Origin: Blepharisma japonicum
Taxonomy: Eukaryota; Ciliophora; Heterotrichea; Heterotrichida; Blepharismidae
Length of the DNA stretch: 64,000 bases
Assembly: GCA_949751835.1 (NCBI GenBank)
Contig: CATKHK010000005.1
Coordinates: 558,001-622,000, forward strand
Direction of reading: 5' to 3'
Notes under the pieces: generated by a model
What the model saw: the letters and a program-made list of their open reading frames with translations, nothing else
Database searches by the model: none
Told to the model about the DNA's origin: nothing
Program-made: the position numbers and the translations under genes
Shown: piece after piece, positions 22,470-46,197 of the stretch
Layout: the number at the start of each line of letters is the position of its first letter
Numbering within the stretch: the stretch's first letter is position 1

Positions 22470-24656
<2,187 letters not shown>

Positions 24657-27126: not shown

Positions 27127-30100
27127 TTAAAGCTCGTTCACTGTCATAACTGCTAGTGAATCATTAATTCTTGGCCCAATTTCTTGAATTTTGCTTCCCA
27201 AATCTCCAACGTTTCTTGCTTTTCCAAGCACTCCTCCAGAGCCCATAGGTAGTAGTGAGTTTACAGCTGATCCAAATTTGCTGGCTGTTATAAACCCTAT
27301 AATTCCAAGGAAAATAAATGCGAAAATCAAAATCAATATCAGCAAAGTGATTAAAAACATTTTAATCAGTTTTCCTTTTCCCATTCCCATATGCTCAATT
27401 GCACCATTTGCAATTTCGCTACGAATATATTCCAGAGCCGCATCAAATTCTTGCACATTCATGCATCCACTTCCATCTGCATCAAATTTAGAAAAAATTT
27501 CTAATAGTCTTTGCATGGTAAATTCCAAGTCAAAAAATTTCATAATTTGGGCAAACTCTTCAAAATCAAGCTCTCCTGAATGGTCTTTATCAAGCATGTG
27601 GAAGATTTGGTCTGTGTCTCCTCCTGAGTCCATTTTTTCTTTTAATTTTTCAAGGTCGCTTTTACCAGATCTTGCTTCCTCTTCAGATTCTCCTATTAGT
27701 TTCAATCTTTTAATAAGTGTTACTACTTGCTGAATTTTAATAGGGTCAAATTCACAAAACCTCCCAGCCATTCCAGCCAAGCCATTCCAGTCCCCTTTAC
27801 CTAATGCTATAAACCCAGCTATAATATTTTCATCAATATCATACGTTTTTGACAGCTTATACGCTGCTTTATCTCTGCTTTCTGGGCTATTATCTGATTG
27901 GAATAGTGCTACAAGTCCACATAACAAAGATAAGGTTTCAGGCTTTACGTTTGGCATTAAAGCAAGCCCTAAGCTAGGCATTGAAGCTAAGACTGCGCCT
28001 TTATACTTATTTGGATCTGTGCACACCAAAAAGAATGCATCTAGGACAGTGATATCAGCATTTTCTTTTTCTTTACCAGGTTTGACAGGCAATCTTAAAT
28101 TTTTCGGGATATTTGATACGATGTAGTCTACAAATGGAAATAGAACTTCTCCCATACCGTCGCGGCCATAGTCTAAATCTTTTTGAAGTTTTCCTAGTAG
28201 TTTTACTATTGAATCAATAACTGGTATAGGAATTTTTGGGTATCGCTGATTAATTATTCTTGGAAGCCATACAAATTCTTTCAAGTTTAATGGGTTTTCA
28301 GGGACTGCTAATGTATAAAGCTCTTTAAGAGCGTCTTCTGGGATGCCAAACTCCTCTTTAGCGAACCCTAAAAATGCTTCAAGCTCTCCCATTGCATAAA
28401 GCAAAAACATTTTCCCTGGCTTAGATTTTGCTGGCATTTCCACCTTTGTGAGCCTTTCCAAAAATTTCTTTATAAATGGTAAAAGCTCTCTATAGCGGTC
28501 ATCAAGCTTTTTTTGCACTAAAGCAATCATTATTTCAGGAGCATTTTCCACATAATTTTCTTTTAATTCCGCTCTATAATTATCTGAGTTTGCAGCCCTT
28601 GTTACCCCTTTTGCCATTAAATTATACTGTTTCCTTACAGATCCTACAATACTTTGTATAAGTCCTGACGGTATATTTAAATTATTGTGGTCAATATATT
28701 CTTCAATTTTATCCGTAGCATTAAAAAGCATAGTAGAGTTTCCATTGAAAACGTGGACTAAGAACTTTAAAATTTCATAGTGATCAAAGCTTTCTCCAAG
28801 GATTCTCATTACTATTGGCACTACTTCTACATCACCATCACCAATGCCTAGGATTAAATCAAGAATGATCCCTCCGGCCTTTTTTCTGTGCTCATTTAGG
28901 AGAATTCGCCTCATATTAGGGTTTCTTCAGAGTCTCCTGAAGCCGATTTTCTCAATTAGAGCTTCTTTGTAAGGGTTTCCAAGTGAATTTGCATTAGGAG
29001 CTTCAATGTCATTTGTGGTGTCTGCTTCTAAAAATCTGGTTTGATTAGGTGAAATATCAATTTCTGGTTCAATATCCATACGAATGTTGTCATTAAACAT
29101 GCTTTCTTTTACATCATATGGCATTTTCTTAGATAAAATGCTTTGCAAAGCTTTTAATAGTAATGATTGCGGCGACTCATCTTTTTCTTGCGACCTCTGT
29201 AAATTCATGAAAAAGAGTCCTAATTGTACCCACGCATCCAAGTCTCCTGACATAGCTTGGAATATTGAAGCAGCTAAAGAGGCGCTAATGGGTGGAGATG
29301 ACAGCCTTTCACAAATGCTTTGAAAGGAAAGTTCCAGACTTTCTTTAGTTTTATAACAATATGGCAAAAACCCTTGTGCAATACTCGGATCAATTTCAAG
29401 CCTAACTGCTAATGGGCCTATTCCTGATGAAAGTGCATCAATTGAATTAAAAGAAAGCATGATCAGGATAAGCAGCATGTCTTGGTCTACTTCTAAAAAG
29501 TCTCCTAAAGCATCAATTGTTTCTATAACTCCATGAGGATTACGAGAACATAGTGCTGTCAAGCTCTGCAGAAGCCTTGGGTCAGGATATATTTTTGTGC
29601 ACAATAATTGATGGGTTTTACTTTCGATTTTCCAACAGCTATGGTCACCTTTAGCCAACTTTACCAAAAATTCGAGCTCAGGGGCATCCGGCTCAAAGCC
29701 ATAAAATGAAAATAAATCGTCTTCATTAGCTTCATCAGTATCAGTGTTCCCTAGTAATTTTTTATTTTTTTCTTCTAGCTCATTAAATTCTTCTACTAAT
29801 TCTAATATATCCTCCCAATCTCCAGTAGACAGCGCCATGATTTCTTTTAACGTATCAATATCAATAGGTAAATCTTCATATAAAGATTTCAGTATTTCTT
29901 CAATTTTATCATGATGATGCAAATTTCCGCCTGCCAGTTCTAAAAACAGTTTTACAGACTCTTCATTGAAATATCCTTCACCTGGCAATGATTTTTCGTT
30001 TAATCCAGATATAAGAGTATTCATATATTGCTGTTTTCTGTTTGGATCAAAACTCAAAGTTATTCGCTTTTTCAGTATTGAGCCTTCAGATTCAACCCCA

Positions 30101-33100
30101 TCTAAGTCGCCAGTTGACGAAAAAGAACTTTCAGATGAAGAGCCCATAGATGATGAAGATTCTGAGTCGGATTTGTCAGATTCTTCGATCTCCAAAATGT
30201 AATCGTTAAAATCGTCTTCATGGATGTATTCGTCAATAAACCGTTGGGCTTCTCTTGCAGTTTCTACTTGCAAAATTTGTCGAAGCCATAAAAGACATGA
30301 TGCATCATGCCTGGCAAGTTTTATTAAAATTTCTAATCCTTTTGAAGGAATTTTAAATAGGTCAGACAAGTTTCTTATTATAGAAGGAAGGTGCTTGAAT
30401 GCCATTCATGCATTGTGCTCTTTGGATTTTATATTGTTTCTGAAAGGGTTCTGATTTACTAAGCACGCGAAACTTGCATAAATATTTTTTTCCACTGATC
30501 CCCAGCCTATTTTTCCTGCGATTTCTCCTATAATGCTTGCATCGCCTTGTACAAGCTTTGTAACTACAACAGCACCATTGCTATTAGGCAATCCAATAGA
30601 TTTGCAAAGCCAAGGCAATCCTTGTTTTAATTTTTTTGTCTTTTGAGAAGGCTTATATTTTTTCCCAGACTTCCCATCAATAGACAAATATGAATAAATG
30701 CTCAACAAAGCTTTTAAGAGCTGTGGCCTTATTGCTCCTCCATCTTCTAAATCTTCAGCTATGTCTTCAACATGCTCAAAATCTGACCTAGTCAATGCAA
30801 TAACAGCAGCTGCTTTTTGGTCATCAAGCCCTAATTTTAATACAATTTTTTGGAAACTGGAAGAGGTTTTTAGAGCAGTATGGTTTAAATCGTCATTTCC
30901 TGACAAAGTCACCAATACCTCTGCTATATCTGCATCAAAGGAAATAGCTGAACATATGTCTTCTATGTTTTGAACCATTCCAAGTGCCATAGAAATAAAA
31001 CCTCGACAATGTGATTCTTCTATTTGAAAACCTGGACTGTGCAGTCTAGACATTTCTATAATGGTAGACGCCATAGTTTCATAATCAAGCTTAGAAGCCG
31101 CAATCATCCCTGATATAATTAATGGAGGAATTTCTAAGACTTGTCCTAGGACTTCTGAGCATGTAGCTTTTTTCGATAATTCGCCTTGTGGGTTTATCGA
31201 AAATTTACAGTTAGTTTTGATAGCTAAAGCTGATAAGGATTTTCCTATGTTTTCAAGAACTGGATCAAGTCTTAACACATGAAGTAAATTACCTACTTTT
31301 TCTATGACATCTGAGTCAGAAAGAGCTCCAAAAATGGTCATAATTGTTGTAAGGGTGTCAGGATTTAAAGAAAGTGTTTTTCCTAATGGCTCTAATTCAG
31401 AAATTTCTCCATTTACAAAGTTCGCTATTGAGTCTTGTAAAGCTGGTGCATCAACCCCAAGCTCTCCTATAAATTTCTTAGTGAACTGTTTGAATATTTC
31501 AGCGTTTTCAGAAACAATGTCAGCAAATCCAATAGCGAGGGAGTCTAAAAATGAGGTTGGGACTCCTATAGTTCTAGCCAGCTTATTGAAGCCAAGAACT
31601 GCATTGAAAAATATTTGGTTTTGGTTAGAGTAGTCTTGGATTATTCCTTCATAGCCAGACACATCTTTTATGCCTACTTTTTCAAGCCAATTCTTCATCG
31701 CGATTGTTTTCGGATAAATATTGTCTTCTAAAACCATATCAATTCAGGCACTCATCATTTCTGGCTCAACTTCAAGCAGCCTTGCGAGGGCAATGATGTT
31801 TTCTTTTCTTTTAGTTCCTTGAGTTTGTCATAGATATGAGGCTTGAATTAATGATTTATATTTTCTTTGGTTTTCTTCGTCACATGGGACTTTCTTCTCA
31901 AAGATTTTCCTCAGGAAAATGGCAGGATATTGGAATGACATTAATAGCTGCCCTTTAGCCATAATTCTTCTCTTAATTTTCAAAGCTTTTATTTCAGAAA
32001 CCTTATTCGCAAGTGCTTTGCATCAATCTTTACAAAGTGCTGCATGGAATCTCCATGACAGCGCTTTTTTCCTCCTCACAAGTGGGTCATCATTTTTTAA
32101 TTTCAGTTGCTTTACTAAATATCCATTTGGTAAATCCTTGGGGTCAATAAGTCTTTTAGCTACAAAAGTCAAGTCTTTGCATTGCATTTTCAGCTTAGAA
32201 TGAGCCTCCCTTATAGAATCTACATCAAGTGAAGTTAGCCACACAGTTACGTGTGTTAAATAATCAGTAAAGCTTTCATCCAATCTCATTCTCCTTACAA
32301 CTTCTCTAGTGATTTCTTTAAGTGCTGAGCCTTGCCGCTTATTAGCACCTCTTATGATTGAATAAAGTCCTAGCAGTTGTTCTCCAGTCAATTTAAAAAA
32401 TTTTGCCATCCATTCCATGCTTTCAGCTGTTGGCTGATGTGACTCTGCAAGTGCTTTAAATGCAGGTGGAAGCTTATTTTCATTAATCATAGCTTGAATT
32501 TCACTGTCAGGCTGTATGATATCTCCACTAATTAAATTTGAGTCTCTAACATTTTCTACATTTGTGATAAGTCTGGGAATCTCTGTATATTTTTTCTCTG
32601 CAAAAACAGGGGCGATGCTTTTGACGATTTCTGGATCTAAGTCATATTGATCAGCAAGCTCGTCAAAATCAATATTAACGCCATGGATTATTGCAAATAG
32701 TGAAGACATTACTTGATGCTCAAGTCTCCAGCCATATTTTCTATTAAACATGTCTGTAATTTGTATTAGTAGACGTTGAAGCTGCCCATGAGATTCTCTG
32801 GACATATGGACAATCATTTGGATTGGCAGAGAGTCTTGCATTCCTAAAAATTTGGAAAATAAGTCAACTTTTTCGTCCCAACCGCTGTAGTCATTTTGAA
32901 ATTTACTTGCATATCCTTCGTCGCAAAATGCTCCAATACATTCCGCTATATCTTTAGGGAAATTCCCAAAATTGATCATTAGTCTTACAAAAATTTCTAC
33001 AATTTCTTTGCCTCCATCTTCAATTAATCCTTTGATTAGAAGCATTAAGTCTGTAATAGGCTTCGGAAAAGTCTCTGATGTAGATATTCAGGTCAGCATT

Positions 33101-36100
33101 CTATCAGTAGACCCACGTGACATTGCAACCAGTGCTTCAATAATTCTAGGATCTATATTGTATCCATCAATTTCTTTGTCTGCTAATAATTCTTTTTTCA
33201 TCTTCACAAACTGCACAGTTGCCATTTTCACAGAGCTTCTTATATTTAAATCGCTTTGCTTTAGAGATACTTTTACTATCATTTTGGCAATATCAGGAGA
33301 AATATTAATGGCTGGGATTACTGCAAGCTGCTCAGTGATTCCTAAAAGCTTATTATTATCTTTTTGTATTACTGCTACAATAGCTGCCATTATTAAGGGA
33401 TGAATACCGAACTCTATTGCAATTTCTTTTATCGCAGATTCATCTCCTTGAGCTAAAGCAGTAGCGAGCTTATGGTTTATATCTAGCGATTTCGCTATTC
33501 CTCCAAGTGGAGTTTTAGAAAATACTTGTAAGGTTCTGTTTTCTCTACTAATCGTAGAAGTCTGCACTTGGCTTAAAGCTAGCCCAGCGCATGCGCTTTC
33601 TAAGGTTGCGCTCACATTTCCATTTAGTTTTTCTTTTACAGACGTTTTCACCCGCTTGAAAATTTCTGATGTCATAAATGTGATTATTTTTACCTGGGCT
33701 AAGCAAAATGCTATTAACGTTGCAGCACCTGCACAGTAAGGCAAAAATATATCAGGGTTAAGTACTGCTCCTAATATAAACCACATTAATGCATTCACAA
33801 ATAGCATCATAATAATTCCAGCAATAAATAGTAATGCAAAATAATGGGCAAATTGAGAAAATTTTCGATATCCTGTAATCCCTGCTAATAAGGTGTCTGC
33901 TCTGGCTGGGAATACTTGGTAGATGTAATATGTATATAGCTCAATTATAGAAATTACTAATAAAATAAGCGACACTATTAGCATTACCCAAAGAATTGTT
34001 TCTAAGTATTGAAATTTTGAAGGCATCAAATATCATGCACTTTTCATATCAATTTTGGTCAAAATATAGTCAGGATTTCTTGCAGAAGTTTCAGCATGCT
34101 TTGTTTCAGTTAAAAGCGGAGTTAAAGACAGCGGCAATACTATTCAAACACATAAAATTACATGCAAAATTGCAACGCAGCAATCTGCACAATACCAACA
34201 TCGCCCTAGAGGACTAATGTCTTTATCACCTTCTGTATAGACAAATGCTGATAAATCTATCCTATATCGTCCTCCAGCTTTTAAATGGGTTATTTGCAGC
34301 CTCTCAAAAATACTTCCCATAGCGCCCATCGCTCTTTTAGTAATAGGAACCGCATCAGTCACCTGCTCAGCCCTACAAAACTTCTCATACTCGCTTTGGA
34401 AGTCTTTAACATAAATTACATCAGCATTAAATGGCGATAAATTGCACCTTGACCTGACAAAGAAACTTAGTGAGTCTTCATTTGGCATTTGTGCAGGTTT
34501 TCCAAGCTCAATTAATTCTTTTCTATTTTTAAACAAAATTTTTCTGAAAACTTCAGTAGAAGTATCGTTGACAGTAAAAAATTCCATTTCAAGATCAGCG
34601 AACTTGTCTTTATTTTCTTTGAGATTCTTTTCAACGTATCCTTTTGCAAAGCAGAATTCTTCATACTTTGATTTAACATCTACCAATTTTAATGTTTGTA
34701 TCGGCACTTCTTCGCCTTCTGGTACTTCTTTTACAACTTTTTGTAAAAACAAGGACAACGAATCAGCGTTTGATTGCGAACTTTGGGTTATTAAAATATC
34801 AGGAATTGCATATGGAGGCAATAAGCATCCTTCCCCAGGGACTTGCTCTTCCTCTTGTTCTTCCTCATTTCCTTCAGCTCCTTCTTTTTCATCTTCATTA
34901 TTTTCATCGTTTTCTTCATCATCTTCATCTATTTCATTTAAAATATCTTTCGCAGACCTATTATCTCTTATTCTTGTTTCTACCGTATTTCTGAGCACTA
35001 AAAACCTTCTTTTATGCTCTAATTTTCTCCACACAATGTCAGCAAGATTTTTAAGAAAAATGTAAAAACCAAAAGCGCCTCCAAGTCCACATATAAAGCC
35101 TAAAAACAAACTAATGGAAAGAGCAGCCAATAGAAATGGGTTACTAGTGAGCTTAATAAGGTGCCTTGATAGCTGTAGGGTTTTTGTCCGAGAAAACTTG
35201 TATCAGTTATCGCTGCTTTTGCTTGTTTCCATTCAGATGAGTAAGTCAGAGTCTCTTGCTGACCACATGTCGTAGAGTGTATTATACATAGTGCTAATCG
35301 TGGCGTTGGATAATTTTGTGTTGGTTAAGGGATAGCTTAAAGGAAGAATCCTTATATTAATAGAATATATATCAGGGACTAGTAATCCAAAAGATATTAA
35401 TGATAACCACCAAGGCTTCATTTGAGCATATGCTTCATTAGTAGTAAAAAGCCACTTTCCAGTGTCTTCATAAATCCCAGGCATGTTCATAATTGTTAGG
35501 ACGTCTTTGTTGATTCCTGCGTTAAATGTATCATTTGCGATTTTATCAATAACCACATGGCCTTTTAAGTCAACAATTGGGACTTCGTCACCTGAAACCA
35601 TTTTATAGCCTGGCTGAAGCTCTCCTCCACTTATTAAATTCCAATATATTGCACCATTGCTTACTTTTACATCAAATGATCTTGTGCTTTTACATGGGCT
35701 TGAAGAACATACATAATGAGCCCCTTGGCAGCTTTCAACTGTATAAGAAGTGTCATTTGTATACCAATATTTTGAAGTAACACACTCATCAGCAGATTCT
35801 GTTATTATGCTAGGTGCAGCAAAGCAGTAATATCCAGAGTATGTGGTAGCTCAATTAATATGAGAATCCTTAGGTGTTTGTAATCATAGATCTCCATCTG
35901 TTATATCAATATTCCCACTAGTAGCAGTTAAGCTTTCAATAGTTACAGTCCCACTTAATTTTATTGATAAATCGCCAGTATTAGCTCCTTTAAGCTTAAT
36001 TCTGCTTTGTAAAATATTTCCATTGTCATCAGCGTAAGTATTTGCTGTGAAACTGCTAAAACTGATATCTTCATCAACTTGCTCAATCCAGCACAAATGA

Positions 36101-36642
36101 ATACACTCAAAAACTGTATCAGGGAAGATTCCATTTGAGGTTAATTTAATTTCGCAAGTCTCTAAATCTTCATAGTAATTCTCAACAGTAAGGATGCCTG
36201 GCTCTGCTTTTGCTGTGTCATTTGAAGGATTTCGAAATGCGTTTACATATGCCTTTACTTCGTTTTCTGATAATGATAAGTCTTTATAAAGCTTTATTTT
36301 ACAGTCACGAACTGAAATTACTAGGGATGAATCTGTAAAGGTTGCGTTCAGCTCAAATTGACTACTTATAGCGTAGCTGTAAAAAGAAATAAAAATAATG
36401 AAAAGAAAGATCGTTATGTAGGTAATTCTCACTGTTTTTCTTATATTGGCTAAGCAGGTGTTTGACAGCTTGCCTGAGCCTAGTGATCTCCATGTGCCCA
36501 TAACTGAAGTAAGGCTTTTTTTGAGAAGTGGAGCCTTTTCTTGGACTGGTTGGTCTTGATCAGGCAGATCTTCGCAGTTCTGAATAATTATAACAGGCTC
36601 AGGCGCAACCTTAGGGCTTTTTGCACGCTCGGGTTCGATCAT
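27127..36642 (-). CDS. Giant multi-TM protein with helical repeats and C-terminal EF-hands (3,171 residues)
   Basis: One uninterrupted frame of 9,516 bp with TGA=Trp. N-terminal cytosolic tail; TM1 about residues 72-92; an ectodomain of about 410 residues with many Cys and a beta-rich SIKLSGTVTIESLTATSG block; TM2 about 503-530; a very acidic cytosolic segment (about 555-590); TMs about 815-842, 882-905, 930-960 and 968-985. From about 1,040 to 3,000 come degenerate alpha-helical repeats with a core like xALxxGDxxxIxxIA (LATALAQGDESAIKEIAIEF, FIALGKGDWNGLAGMAGRF, LVKLAKGDHSCW). Two canonical EF-hands follow: DKDHSGELDFEE (from 3018) and DADGSGCMNVQE (from 3054), then a last TM about 3092-3118. 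No known family is recognised. A calcium-responsive membrane scaffold is an inference. Confidence 0.85.
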
Positions 36643-42807: not shown

Positions 42808-42880
42808 TTCCGCATCCGGGACTTGAACCCGGGTCTACAGGGTGAGAGCCTGTTATCCTAACCAGCTAGACTAATGCGGA
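42808..42880 (-). tRNA. tRNA-Glu (anticodon CTC)
   Basis: Minus-strand cloverleaf with a 7-bp acceptor stem TCCGCAT/ATGCGGA and discriminator A (42808). The anticodon stem is ACAGG/CCTGT with loop CTCTCAC, giving anticodon CTC (plus-strand 42844-42846). The T arm is CCGGG TTCAAGT CCCGG. B-box and A-box (TAGTCTAGCTGG) are as expected. No intron. It reads GAG. Confidence 0.95.
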
Positions 42881-43148: not shown

Positions 43149-46044
43149 ATGAAATCCTCAGACGCATCTGCAAACATTTTCTCTACAAATAATCATTTAA
43201 TTCCTTCAAAAGTCTTTTTAACTGAAGCCAAGCAAGAAATTGACATCCCAGTAACTCCCTATTTAGCAAGGATTCGATGAGCATCCAGAATATGAACAAA
43301 TGTTCAATGAGCAGCTTAAAAGAGCTCGACTTATGAGAAATATAGGCATAGAATCAATTGGAAATCTCCCTGACAAAAGCGATTGAAAAGAAACTTATAT
43401 TAAGAACCGTATTGAGCTAGAAAAAGCAAAAGCCTTTGAACGTCAAAGAATCCAAGATGAAAATTTTGAGAAACGGCGAAAACGGCAAGAAGAAATCAAC
43501 TTTCAGCGGGAAATCACAGCCAAAAGAAAATACGACCAAGCCTTAAGGAAAATTAACTTTAAGTCAAATGACCCAAAATATACCCAGGCTCCTTTTTACC
43601 CTGGTTTTCGATTTTTTGAAGCTTTAGTTACTGCAAAAAAATTTCCTGTCTCACTTTTATCAATAAATATCCCAAACACATTATATGTCCTTGAATCTCA
43701 ATCCCATTGGCTTTATACAAGTGAAAATGATGGGAAAATCAGGGACGAAAAAGAATTTTCCAAGCATCAAGTTTACACATGCTTTGAAAACTTCCTTGAT
43801 GAAACATTTGATATTTGTGCAGTTTTAAGGCACCCCACAAGTGCTTGTGACATGGAGGCTAATCCTCTTGGATGGGTGGAATTTTCAGATAAGCTATTAA
43901 AAGGGAATTTGACTAGTGGAACTATGATACAGAGGTATATAAGACCAAATGGAGAAAGACCAAGTATCATTAGGCTTTTTTATATTAGTGAAACAAAAGA
44001 CAATAAAGCTTCTTTTGCTTACTGTATAGTAAGCAGTATGAGGGCTCTAGAGCAATATTCACAAGCAAAATATATAGTGTGCAGCAATATTGTTGGTGGC
44101 TTTGATATGTATCAAATGCATGGGCTTGCCATTTCTGAGCTTTTGAATTCAGCCCAAAAAATCGTCAAATTTTTACAATTTGCTTATTCAGTAAGAATAG
44201 AAGAAATTGTATTTGATTTTATCAGAGACAAAGATGGAAAATTTTGATTTTTAAGCTGCAAAGGATTTAATTTAGATTTAGTTGTATTAAAGTCAAGGGA
44301 ACTGAGAATTGAGAGCCAAAAAGACAAATCGCAAGAAGAAATAGAAGACTTAAAAGAGCAAAGATTAAGTGCAATGCATTGCAAATTATGCCTACTGCCT
44401 TTTAAGCCGCATGAATTAACGCACGTTTTACCATTTAAAATGCTGCTATTATATAAAAGACATACAAAAAAGTCAGGAAGGAAAACTATGAAGCTTTCTC
44501 ACATAAGACTTTTAGCTATTGATTTTTTAAGCCATGGTGTAAGACTCTGCGATTTATGCTATATGTTAATAGTCCAGGAAAATGAATTGATAGAAGTAGA
44601 GACAAAATTGGCAAATTTATTAAATGTTGATATCAAGCCTGAAGATTTAACAAGTCAGCCAACTTATAACCACCCTGCATTTTTGCCAACCCTAGCTATA
44701 CAATGAAGAATCATGTTTTATTTTACAGGCATCGACATACCAATTTCTTGTATTTCTCATCAACTTTTTCTGCATTTCAAAATTTTCGAAAAAATATACT
44801 CAATGTGTCTCTGTAAAGCAACTAATCAAACTTCTCATATAAAACTATCCAAGGCGAGGCTTTTTTATTTTTTTTCAATAGATAGTAAGCATGCTGAAAA
44901 ATTATGTGCTATTGAAGAAATGGAACTTTTTATATCTAAAGGAGAAGATGGGTCAAAAATCATAGCCAGTGGGACTTCAAAGCCATTAAGATTTTTTGGC
45001 TGCGAAATGCAAGAAGGGGATTCTATTACTCAGCCACTAGAAGTTATATTATTTTCTCCTGATAAAAAATATTTCACGCTAAGGCTTGTAGCGGGTATAG
45101 CAAGCGACCATAAGCTGAATCCAAGGACTTTGCAAATAAATATAAGGAAATATCACAGTACATATATACCTGATGAATGCTATTTTTCTTCAGATATTTT
45201 GCCAAATTCTTGGATGGAGATTTTTGATCCTGAGTATAAAGAAAATGATGGGTCAATGATTTTAAGCTCTTCTGAAGAGCTTGACCAAGTTTATTCTCCA
45301 GCATTAGAAAGAGATTTGATTTTAAATACTCCATTTGGATCAGGAAAAATTTTGCACGTCAATGTTGATTTAAATTCAAGCCCAAGAAGTAAGAAAGAAA
45401 CACCACGAAGCACACAAGATACACCAAAACTTTCTCCAGTAAAAAATAAAAGAGAAAAACTAACTCTGAATATAAAAAAACTGAATTCAGATGAAAAATT
45501 GTTAAAGCCTCTGAAATCTACACAAAGTTCAAGATCTCAGCTATCCACTTTAGCCACTCCAGGCTCAAAACTATTTAAATCCAGCTCTCTTTCAAACACC
45601 CCCTCGGCTCAATTCAATAGTTTATCTACAAGAACCAGATCTGACGCATACTCCACTAATGAGGAAAATACCAAAGAAGATACTGCGAAAGAAGAAACTG
45701 ACAAAGAAGACACAAAAAATGAATTTGGCGAGCTAAAATCCATTGTAAAGAATTTTCTATTTCAAAGAAACTTCAAAGAAGAGCGAATAAGTATATCTGG
45801 AAAAATGATAAACTCCAAATCTGCTAAAGAAATTAATGAAAAAAAATTGCCAGAAATAGCAAAATCAGAGTCTGTAAAAGAGATAATTAAAGAAGAAGCT
45901 AGGACAATAGATAAAAAAACTGGCAAGAAAAAGAAAGGCAAGAGACCTAAAACAGCTGGATATTTGAAAATTGAAAAGAAAATTGGATTGGTGGACATTT
46001 ACGCGCCAAAAGAAATTGAAAATTTAAGAAAGATTTTTGAGTAA
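43149..46044 (+). CDS. Large unknown protein with paired CxxC motifs
   Basis: Two exons (43149-43250 and 43267-46044) give 959 residues. A charged helical N-terminus (residues 60-130, KRRKRQEEINFQREITAKRK type) is followed by a globular region of about 250 residues. Then CKLC (406-409) and CDLC (462-465) lie either side of a basic helix and could bind one zinc. A C2-like beta-rich stretch lies at about 600-700 (LEVILFSPDKKYFTLRLVAG). The last 250 residues are disordered, Ser/Thr/Lys-rich with Lys-Glu repeats (ENTKEDTAKEETDKEDTKNE). No family is recognised. The 16-nt intron is required to keep the frame, and TGAs at 43393, 44245 and 44704 are Trp. Confidence 0.8.
43251..43266 (+). other. 16-nt intron
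   Basis: GTAACTCCCTATTTAG, phase 0; the only 16-nt intron here. Without its removal the frame ends in TAA about 50 bp later; with it, EIDIP joins QGFDEHPEYEQM and the long frame opens. A is six bases from the 3' end. Confidence 0.9.
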
Positions 46045-46123: not shown

Positions 46124-46197
46124 GCCGTGGTAGCTCAGCTGGGAGTAGCGTAAGACTGAAGATCTTAAGGTCCCCGGTTCAATCCCGGGTCACGGCA
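46124..46197 (+). tRNA. tRNA-Phe (anticodon GAA)
   Basis: Acceptor stem GCCGTGG/TCACGGC with one G-T pair and discriminator A (46197). Anticodon stem TAAGA/TCTTA, loop CTGAAGA, anticodon GAA at 46158-46160. T arm CCCGG TTCAATC CCGGG. The D arm has one base more than usual (GGGAGTAGCG where eukaryotic tRNA-Phe has GGGAGAGCG), so the 3' D-stem pairing is weaker. No intron. Confidence 0.93.

Follow-up and report, generated by a model that had tools for sequence, protein, structure and literature searches.

Does an open frame of more than three thousand codons in the genome of the ciliate Blepharisma japonicum encode one protein, and if so, what kind of protein might it be? The frame lies on the minus strand of a 64,000-nucleotide stretch of DNA (the window), and reads from position 36642 to 27127 as a single frame of 3,171 residues that ends in a TAA stop:

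27127..36642 (-), whole gene; 3171 codons plus TAA with TGA read as Trp, defined by the frame and the paralogue

The frame contains 12 TGA and 26 TGG codons. Under table 11 the 12 TGA codons are its sole breaks and split it into 13 segments; an earlier note made from the sequence alone had described eight TGA-separated segments in one frame, and the single frame has held while their number has not. Read with that table, the locus could be taken for several separate genes, or for a frame left open by chance, but this is extremely improbable. A full-length collinear paralogue is present in the same genome, 16 of the 22 alignment columns with TGA in either copy hold Trp in both, and in 20 Markov shuffles of the window no run without a stop went beyond 223 codons.

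A search of the genome (45.2 Mb in 224 contigs, window included) returned one other copy only, with 43% identity to residues 52-1060 of the window protein and 46% to the next 1,930. This paralogue, on contig C17, is one open frame of 3,165 residues that is collinear with the window protein over its whole length and 47% identical to it in the full alignment. Across the 3,113 aligned codons, the fractions of differing sites at codon positions 1, 2 and 3 are 0.42, 0.29 and 0.58, respectively. All 17 regions have changed most at position 3, and in 16 of them position 2 has changed less than position 1, the exception being the 33 codons after the second transmembrane segment (TM2). The pattern is as under protein-level (purifying) selection. 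Since the paralogue is collinear and full-length, the locus is therefore one gene and not several, as far as sequence can establish this, and the earlier claim of one 3,171-residue gene stands. On these comparisons the gene is real, single and conserved, is present in two copies, and has as its predicted product a giant membrane protein with EF-hands.

Introns in Blepharisma stoltei are described as mostly 15 and 16 bp long (PMC9942806). Of the 42 gaps in the alignment of the gene and its paralogue, five are 15 nt long, none of these five with GT..AG ends, and a 16-nt intron in the gene would disrupt the frame. A narrow intron pattern matched once, at paralogue codon 2194, where the alignment continues through. 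The gene contains 14 GT-N11-AG 15-mers and the paralogue 20; the only one at a common place (codon 3116) encodes conserved residues. The gene is apparently intronless, as had been proposed and as far as can be read from its nucleotides.

The wider genome fits its assignment to Blepharisma. Matches to three units of the CCCTAACA telomere repeat were found on the contigs (77 forward and 91 reverse; 0 for a reversed control), and the same repeat is reported for the B. stoltei genome, together with UGA as tryptophan (PMC9942806). A neighbouring leucyl-tRNA synthetase gene, recognized by Pfam, carries the 15-nt intron GTAAATTATAATTAG at window positions 23678..23664 (-), removal of which joins two open reading frames into 722 residues. 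TGA as tryptophan, the telomeres and this intron fit Blepharisma. The window also holds a 914-residue open reading frame at 43300..46044 (+) with no Pfam match at E 0.001, a tRNA-Glu (CTC) at 42808..42880 (-) and a tRNA-Phe (GAA) at 46124..46197 (+). Near the paralogue, at L003:3607..4944 (+), lies a protein with repeated DVNGDG.ADIVG-like units, FG-GAP-like by eye only, and a hydrophobic segment close to its end. The open reading frames flanking the two copies are seemingly unrelated, as judged by eye.

From the N-terminus, the predicted protein is made up of the following parts:

36358..36426 (-), TM1 (residues 73-95); hydropathy and apparent free-energy scale; preceded by a 72-residue N-tail
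35143..36357 (-), ectodomain (residues 96-500) between TM1 and TM2; the least conserved large domain
35053..35136 (-), TM2 (residues 503-530); hydropathy; followed by a K/R-rich stretch
34825..34947 (-), acidic low-complexity stretch (residues 566-606); sequence and paralogue alignment
34507..34824 (-), loop copy 1 of a tandem duplication (residues 607-712); hhalign and alignment
34198..34506 (-), loop copy 2 (residues 713-815); hhalign and alignment; winged-helix-like by eye only
34111..34182 (-), TM3 (residues 821-844); hydropathy and free-energy scale
33934..34002 (-), TM4 (residues 881-903); hydropathy and free-energy scale
33772..33843 (-), TM5 (residues 934-957); hydropathy and free-energy scale; continues into an identical stretch (954-965)
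33679..33747 (-), TM6 (residues 966-988); marginal, could be re-entrant
27673..33522 (-), helical, degenerate-repeat region (residues 1041-2990); amphipathicity, hhalign, a tandem-consensus query and leave-one-out profiles (weak)
30043..30222 (-), Ser/acidic insert within the helical region (residues 2141-2200); sequence and paralogue alignment
27439..27615 (-), EF-hand pair (residues 3010-3068); Pfam; both 12-residue loops canonical by residues
27292..27360 (-), TM7 (residues 3095-3117); the most hydrophobic segment
27130..27285 (-), C-tail (residues 3120-3171); 59% identical in the paralogue

The N-terminal TM-ectodomain-TM arrangement and the strongly hydrophobic terminal TM described in the earlier note were both recovered. 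Of the four TMs that it placed after the acidic loop, the last (TM6) is marginal, and weaker still in the paralogue: on an apparent free-energy scale TM6 scores a poor 0.76 in the window protein and 2.14 in the paralogue, where two later stretches do better (0.79 at about residues 999-1017 and 0.97 at about 1071-1089). Ambiguous hydrophobic stretches beyond TM6 lie near residue 1010 and at 1074-1094. Within the TM3-6 module the longest run identical in the two copies is WFILGAVLNPDI (window 33748..33783, minus strand; residues 954-965), 12 residues at the end of TM5.

The assignment of inside and outside was made because of the lysine and arginine residues next to TM1, TM2, TM6 and TM7. Within 15 TM-adjacent residues there are 5 after TM2, 4 after TM6, 3 before TM1, 3 before TM7 and 0 after TM1; the counts around TM3 and TM4 (2/2 and 2/1) are uninformative for topology. 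On this basis the N-tail would be cytosolic and the Cys-rich domain would face the outside or the lumen, TM3-6 would bring the anchor to six passes, and the helical region would be a solenoid in the cytosol, rejoining the same membrane through TM7. As TM6 is weak and later stretches of the paralogue score better, the helical region and EF-hands can be assigned to a side only with reservation.

If TM6 did not cross, the helical region and EF-hands would be luminal or extracellular, and the protein might sense calcium in a store or have a structural role at the surface. We consider this rather unlikely. The weakness of TM6 in both copies speaks for it, as does an excess of N-glycosylation sequons in the helical region of the paralogue (L002:3095..9403, residues 983-3085), where the 23 found compare with 12.4 in shuffles and were reached by 2 of 1000 shuffles, an excess that fits a lumen better than the cytosol. 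The corresponding region of the window protein shows no such excess (8 against 10.7), K/R clusters stand right after TM6 and before TM7, and the Ser/acidic insert resembles, by eye, a cytosolic phosphorylated linker. Eight sequons occupy a common alignment column in the two copies, and 5 of these are outside the ectodomain. The ectodomain itself has 5 sequons, 3 of them at the same paralogue column, and is not enriched relative to shuffles (5 against 5.2 and 5 against 4.4); all 9 of its cysteines are invariant in the paralogue.

Identity between the copies varies along the protein, being 32% in the N-tail, 37% in the ectodomain, 53% in the loop, 42-53% in the helical parts, 60% in TM2 and TM7 and 68% in the EF-hands. 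Among the large parts divergence is greatest in the ectodomain and smallest in the EF-hands, and the lowest value overall (30%) belongs to the 33 codons after TM2. This distribution over the large parts is as expected for two receptors with different outside partners and one inside machine.

New relative to the first reading is that the loop after TM2 contains, on profile comparison, a tandem duplication of about 100 residues per copy. Residues 607-712 and 713-815 came top of 66 segment pairs in hhalign (single-pair P 0.0003), with an hhalign probability of 39.8% against 1.8% for the best of 66 column-shuffled controls. The copies had no match in Pfam; their best match was PHROG 5853 (E 0.0064, 1 of 4 members), which has no function assigned, followed by a C-Myc-binding protein in the PDB (E 0.023) and an NCBIfam model (0.059). 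These library matches were taken as chance, and a winged helix is a by-eye likeness only. Two single-sequence structure models had mean pLDDT values of 55.1 and 33.9, the latter for the loop, and were too poor for fold search or other use.

The long region between TM6 and the EF-hands had been described as about 2,000 residues of helical repeats. Its helicity is supported by amphipathicity, the helical hydrophobic moment exceeding that of shuffles by 1.8 to 3.6 SD in all five helical segments and falling below it in the ectodomain. The repeats are weakly supported and degenerate, the claim being made because of the hydrophobic moment, hhalign pairs and a tandem consensus and not because of an iterated profile; the latter seemed strong, but all 16 of its hits were the seeds from which it had been built. 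Two of 36 helical segment pairs exceeded 10% hhalign probability, against 0 of 66 shuffled controls. Searching the genome with a tandem consensus of the unit returned 8 matches at E up to 1, of which 7 were in the two paralogues; as the query was modelled on these, the matches show only that the motif is specific to them. When each of nine sites was left out in turn, the excluded site was recovered in the window protein in 4 cases (0.1 to 3.2 bits), in the paralogue in 2 (1.7 and 4.2 bits) and in neither copy in 4; the best scores of 102 control sequences ranged from none to 1.6 bits, and the site at residue 1060 was the only one above controls in both copies. Together these results modestly suggest a long helical region with old, degenerate repeats of roughly 28-40 residues. 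Ankyrin, TPR, HEAT and ARM models were absent among Pfam matches to E 10 for four pieces that span the helical region and three smaller ones, a search that degenerate repeats could escape. The tandem consensus, an artificial sequence, drew 123 Pfam families, several over cut-off (best Sp-DndD, 9e-15), as well as 22 PDB sequences, none better than E 0.11; both sets were taken as artefacts of an idealized repeated helix.

The EF-hands are the one part of the protein with a credible family match. PF00036 scored 42.7 bits over two stretches in the window protein and 42.4 bits in the paralogue (cut-off 25.4), in keeping with the two EF-hands of the earlier note, and the two canonical calcium loops in both copies are what the protein shares with EF-hand proteins (PF00036/PF13499). 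It differs from them in that the hands make up about 2% of its length and nothing else matches credibly. When the EF-hand end (residues 2991-3171) was used as a query against the genome, at least 3 stretches besides the two copies scored below 1e-6 among the 150 of 282 candidates scored. Whole-protein searches of PDB sequences returned 312 and 336 entries, the best 60 of which were all on the EF-hands, and queries with the EF-hands left out returned 1 and 3 matches at E 0.78 or worse. The NCBIfam model XopAW stayed far below its cut-off of 120 (29 and 32.8 bits) and reflects the EF-hands only. Weak library matches to SAM_KIDINS220 (E 0.009 to 0.18), SurA_N_3 (E 0.26), HpaP (E 0.14) and, in the paralogue, PGA2 (E 0.0053) were taken as chance. 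The view that the protein belongs to no recognized family holds for Pfam, NCBIfam and PDB sequences, where no credible match was found beyond the EF-hands. No relative was confirmed when viral and prokaryotic contigs were scanned by pattern, and no account of the protein was found in the titles and abstract openings of the papers listed; the protein of PMC10974281, there described as a 489-residue kinase with EF-hands, is unrelated. As far as these searches go, the protein is unusual and uncharacterized, and Stentor or other ciliates may have homologues of it.

By analogy with polycystin or the ryanodine and IP3 receptors, TM1-6 could form a pore under EF-hand control. Like polycystin and TRPML, the protein has a large domain between the first two of six hydrophobic segments; like the ryanodine and IP3 receptors, it has a giant helical region adjoining EF-hands near membrane segments. 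The differences make a calcium-regulated channel improbable. Pfam searches with the whole protein, seven pieces and the paralogue matched no channel family and no RIH/MIR-type domain. A 290-residue loop follows TM2 and the giant helical region is C-terminal, unlike in polycystin and TRPML, and the gap between TM5 and TM6, the latter itself marginal and perhaps re-entrant, is about 8 to 16 residues depending on the boundaries chosen, less than a pore loop usually takes up. The parts also come in the opposite order to those of the ryanodine and IP3 receptors, with the six-pass module N-terminal here and C-terminal there.

The earlier note had suggested that the protein could tether two membranes or couple calcium to cortical tension; no result here supports either. 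In a tether, the six-pass module would sit in one membrane and TM7 in another, with the solenoid as bridge, and the presence of an anchor on either side of about 2,100 residues, a length judged sufficient for a contact site, would suit it. All the hydrophobic anchors can lie in one membrane, however, which is the simplest outcome of synthesis at the ER, and the conserved tail of about 50 residues beyond TM7 is longer than that of typical tail-anchored proteins. A tether is unlikely, and less likely than a scaffold in one membrane. With regard to cortical tension, no mention of contractility in Blepharisma was found in the available portions of the cited literature. The giants of ciliate myonemes, which are Sfi1-type scaffolds binding centrin or spasmin (PMC12661445), are likewise large calcium-linked ciliate proteins; they bind separate EF-hand proteins, whereas the window protein carries its own EF-hands together with TMs, and no Sfi1 model was among the Pfam matches of the whole protein, its seven pieces or the paralogue.

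We tentatively read the protein as a calcium-sensing, receptor-like membrane scaffold with all its anchors in one membrane, and the two copies as an old paralogous pair. The collinear paralogue, the invariance of all the ectodomain cysteines, the K/R next to TM1, TM2, TM6 and TM7, the identities by region, the helical moment and EF-hands over cut-off in both copies argue for this scaffold; the low identity of the 33 codons after TM2, which it places inside, argues against it, as do the weak TM6, the sequon excess in the paralogue, the lack of sequon enrichment in the ectodomain and the position of most shared sequons elsewhere. Beyond the anatomy, we infer the mechanism at every step. Calcium binding at the EF-hands beside TM7 might move the solenoid with respect to the six-pass module, and its new position could alter what the solenoid binds or the pull that it exerts on that module. 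The two copies would then be receptors that read different outside partners through one common calcium machine inside. It is also conceivable, although distinctly doubtful, that the pair founds a family in which a giant calcium-sensing solenoid, held at both ends in one membrane, works on a six-pass receptor or pore module in the manner of a spring or lever driven by calcium; such an arrangement would resemble a giant calcium-release channel with its parts permuted.

A heterotrich ciliate consists of one giant cell, in which calcium drives fast responses, as reported for Spirostomum and Stentor (PMC12661445, PMC8511388). A conserved pair of giant calcium-binding membrane proteins would be an immediate candidate for the connection between calcium and what happens at the membrane in these organisms. 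If relatives exist outside this genome, the plan, in which anchors flank a giant helical region and EF-hands, would merit a family of its own.
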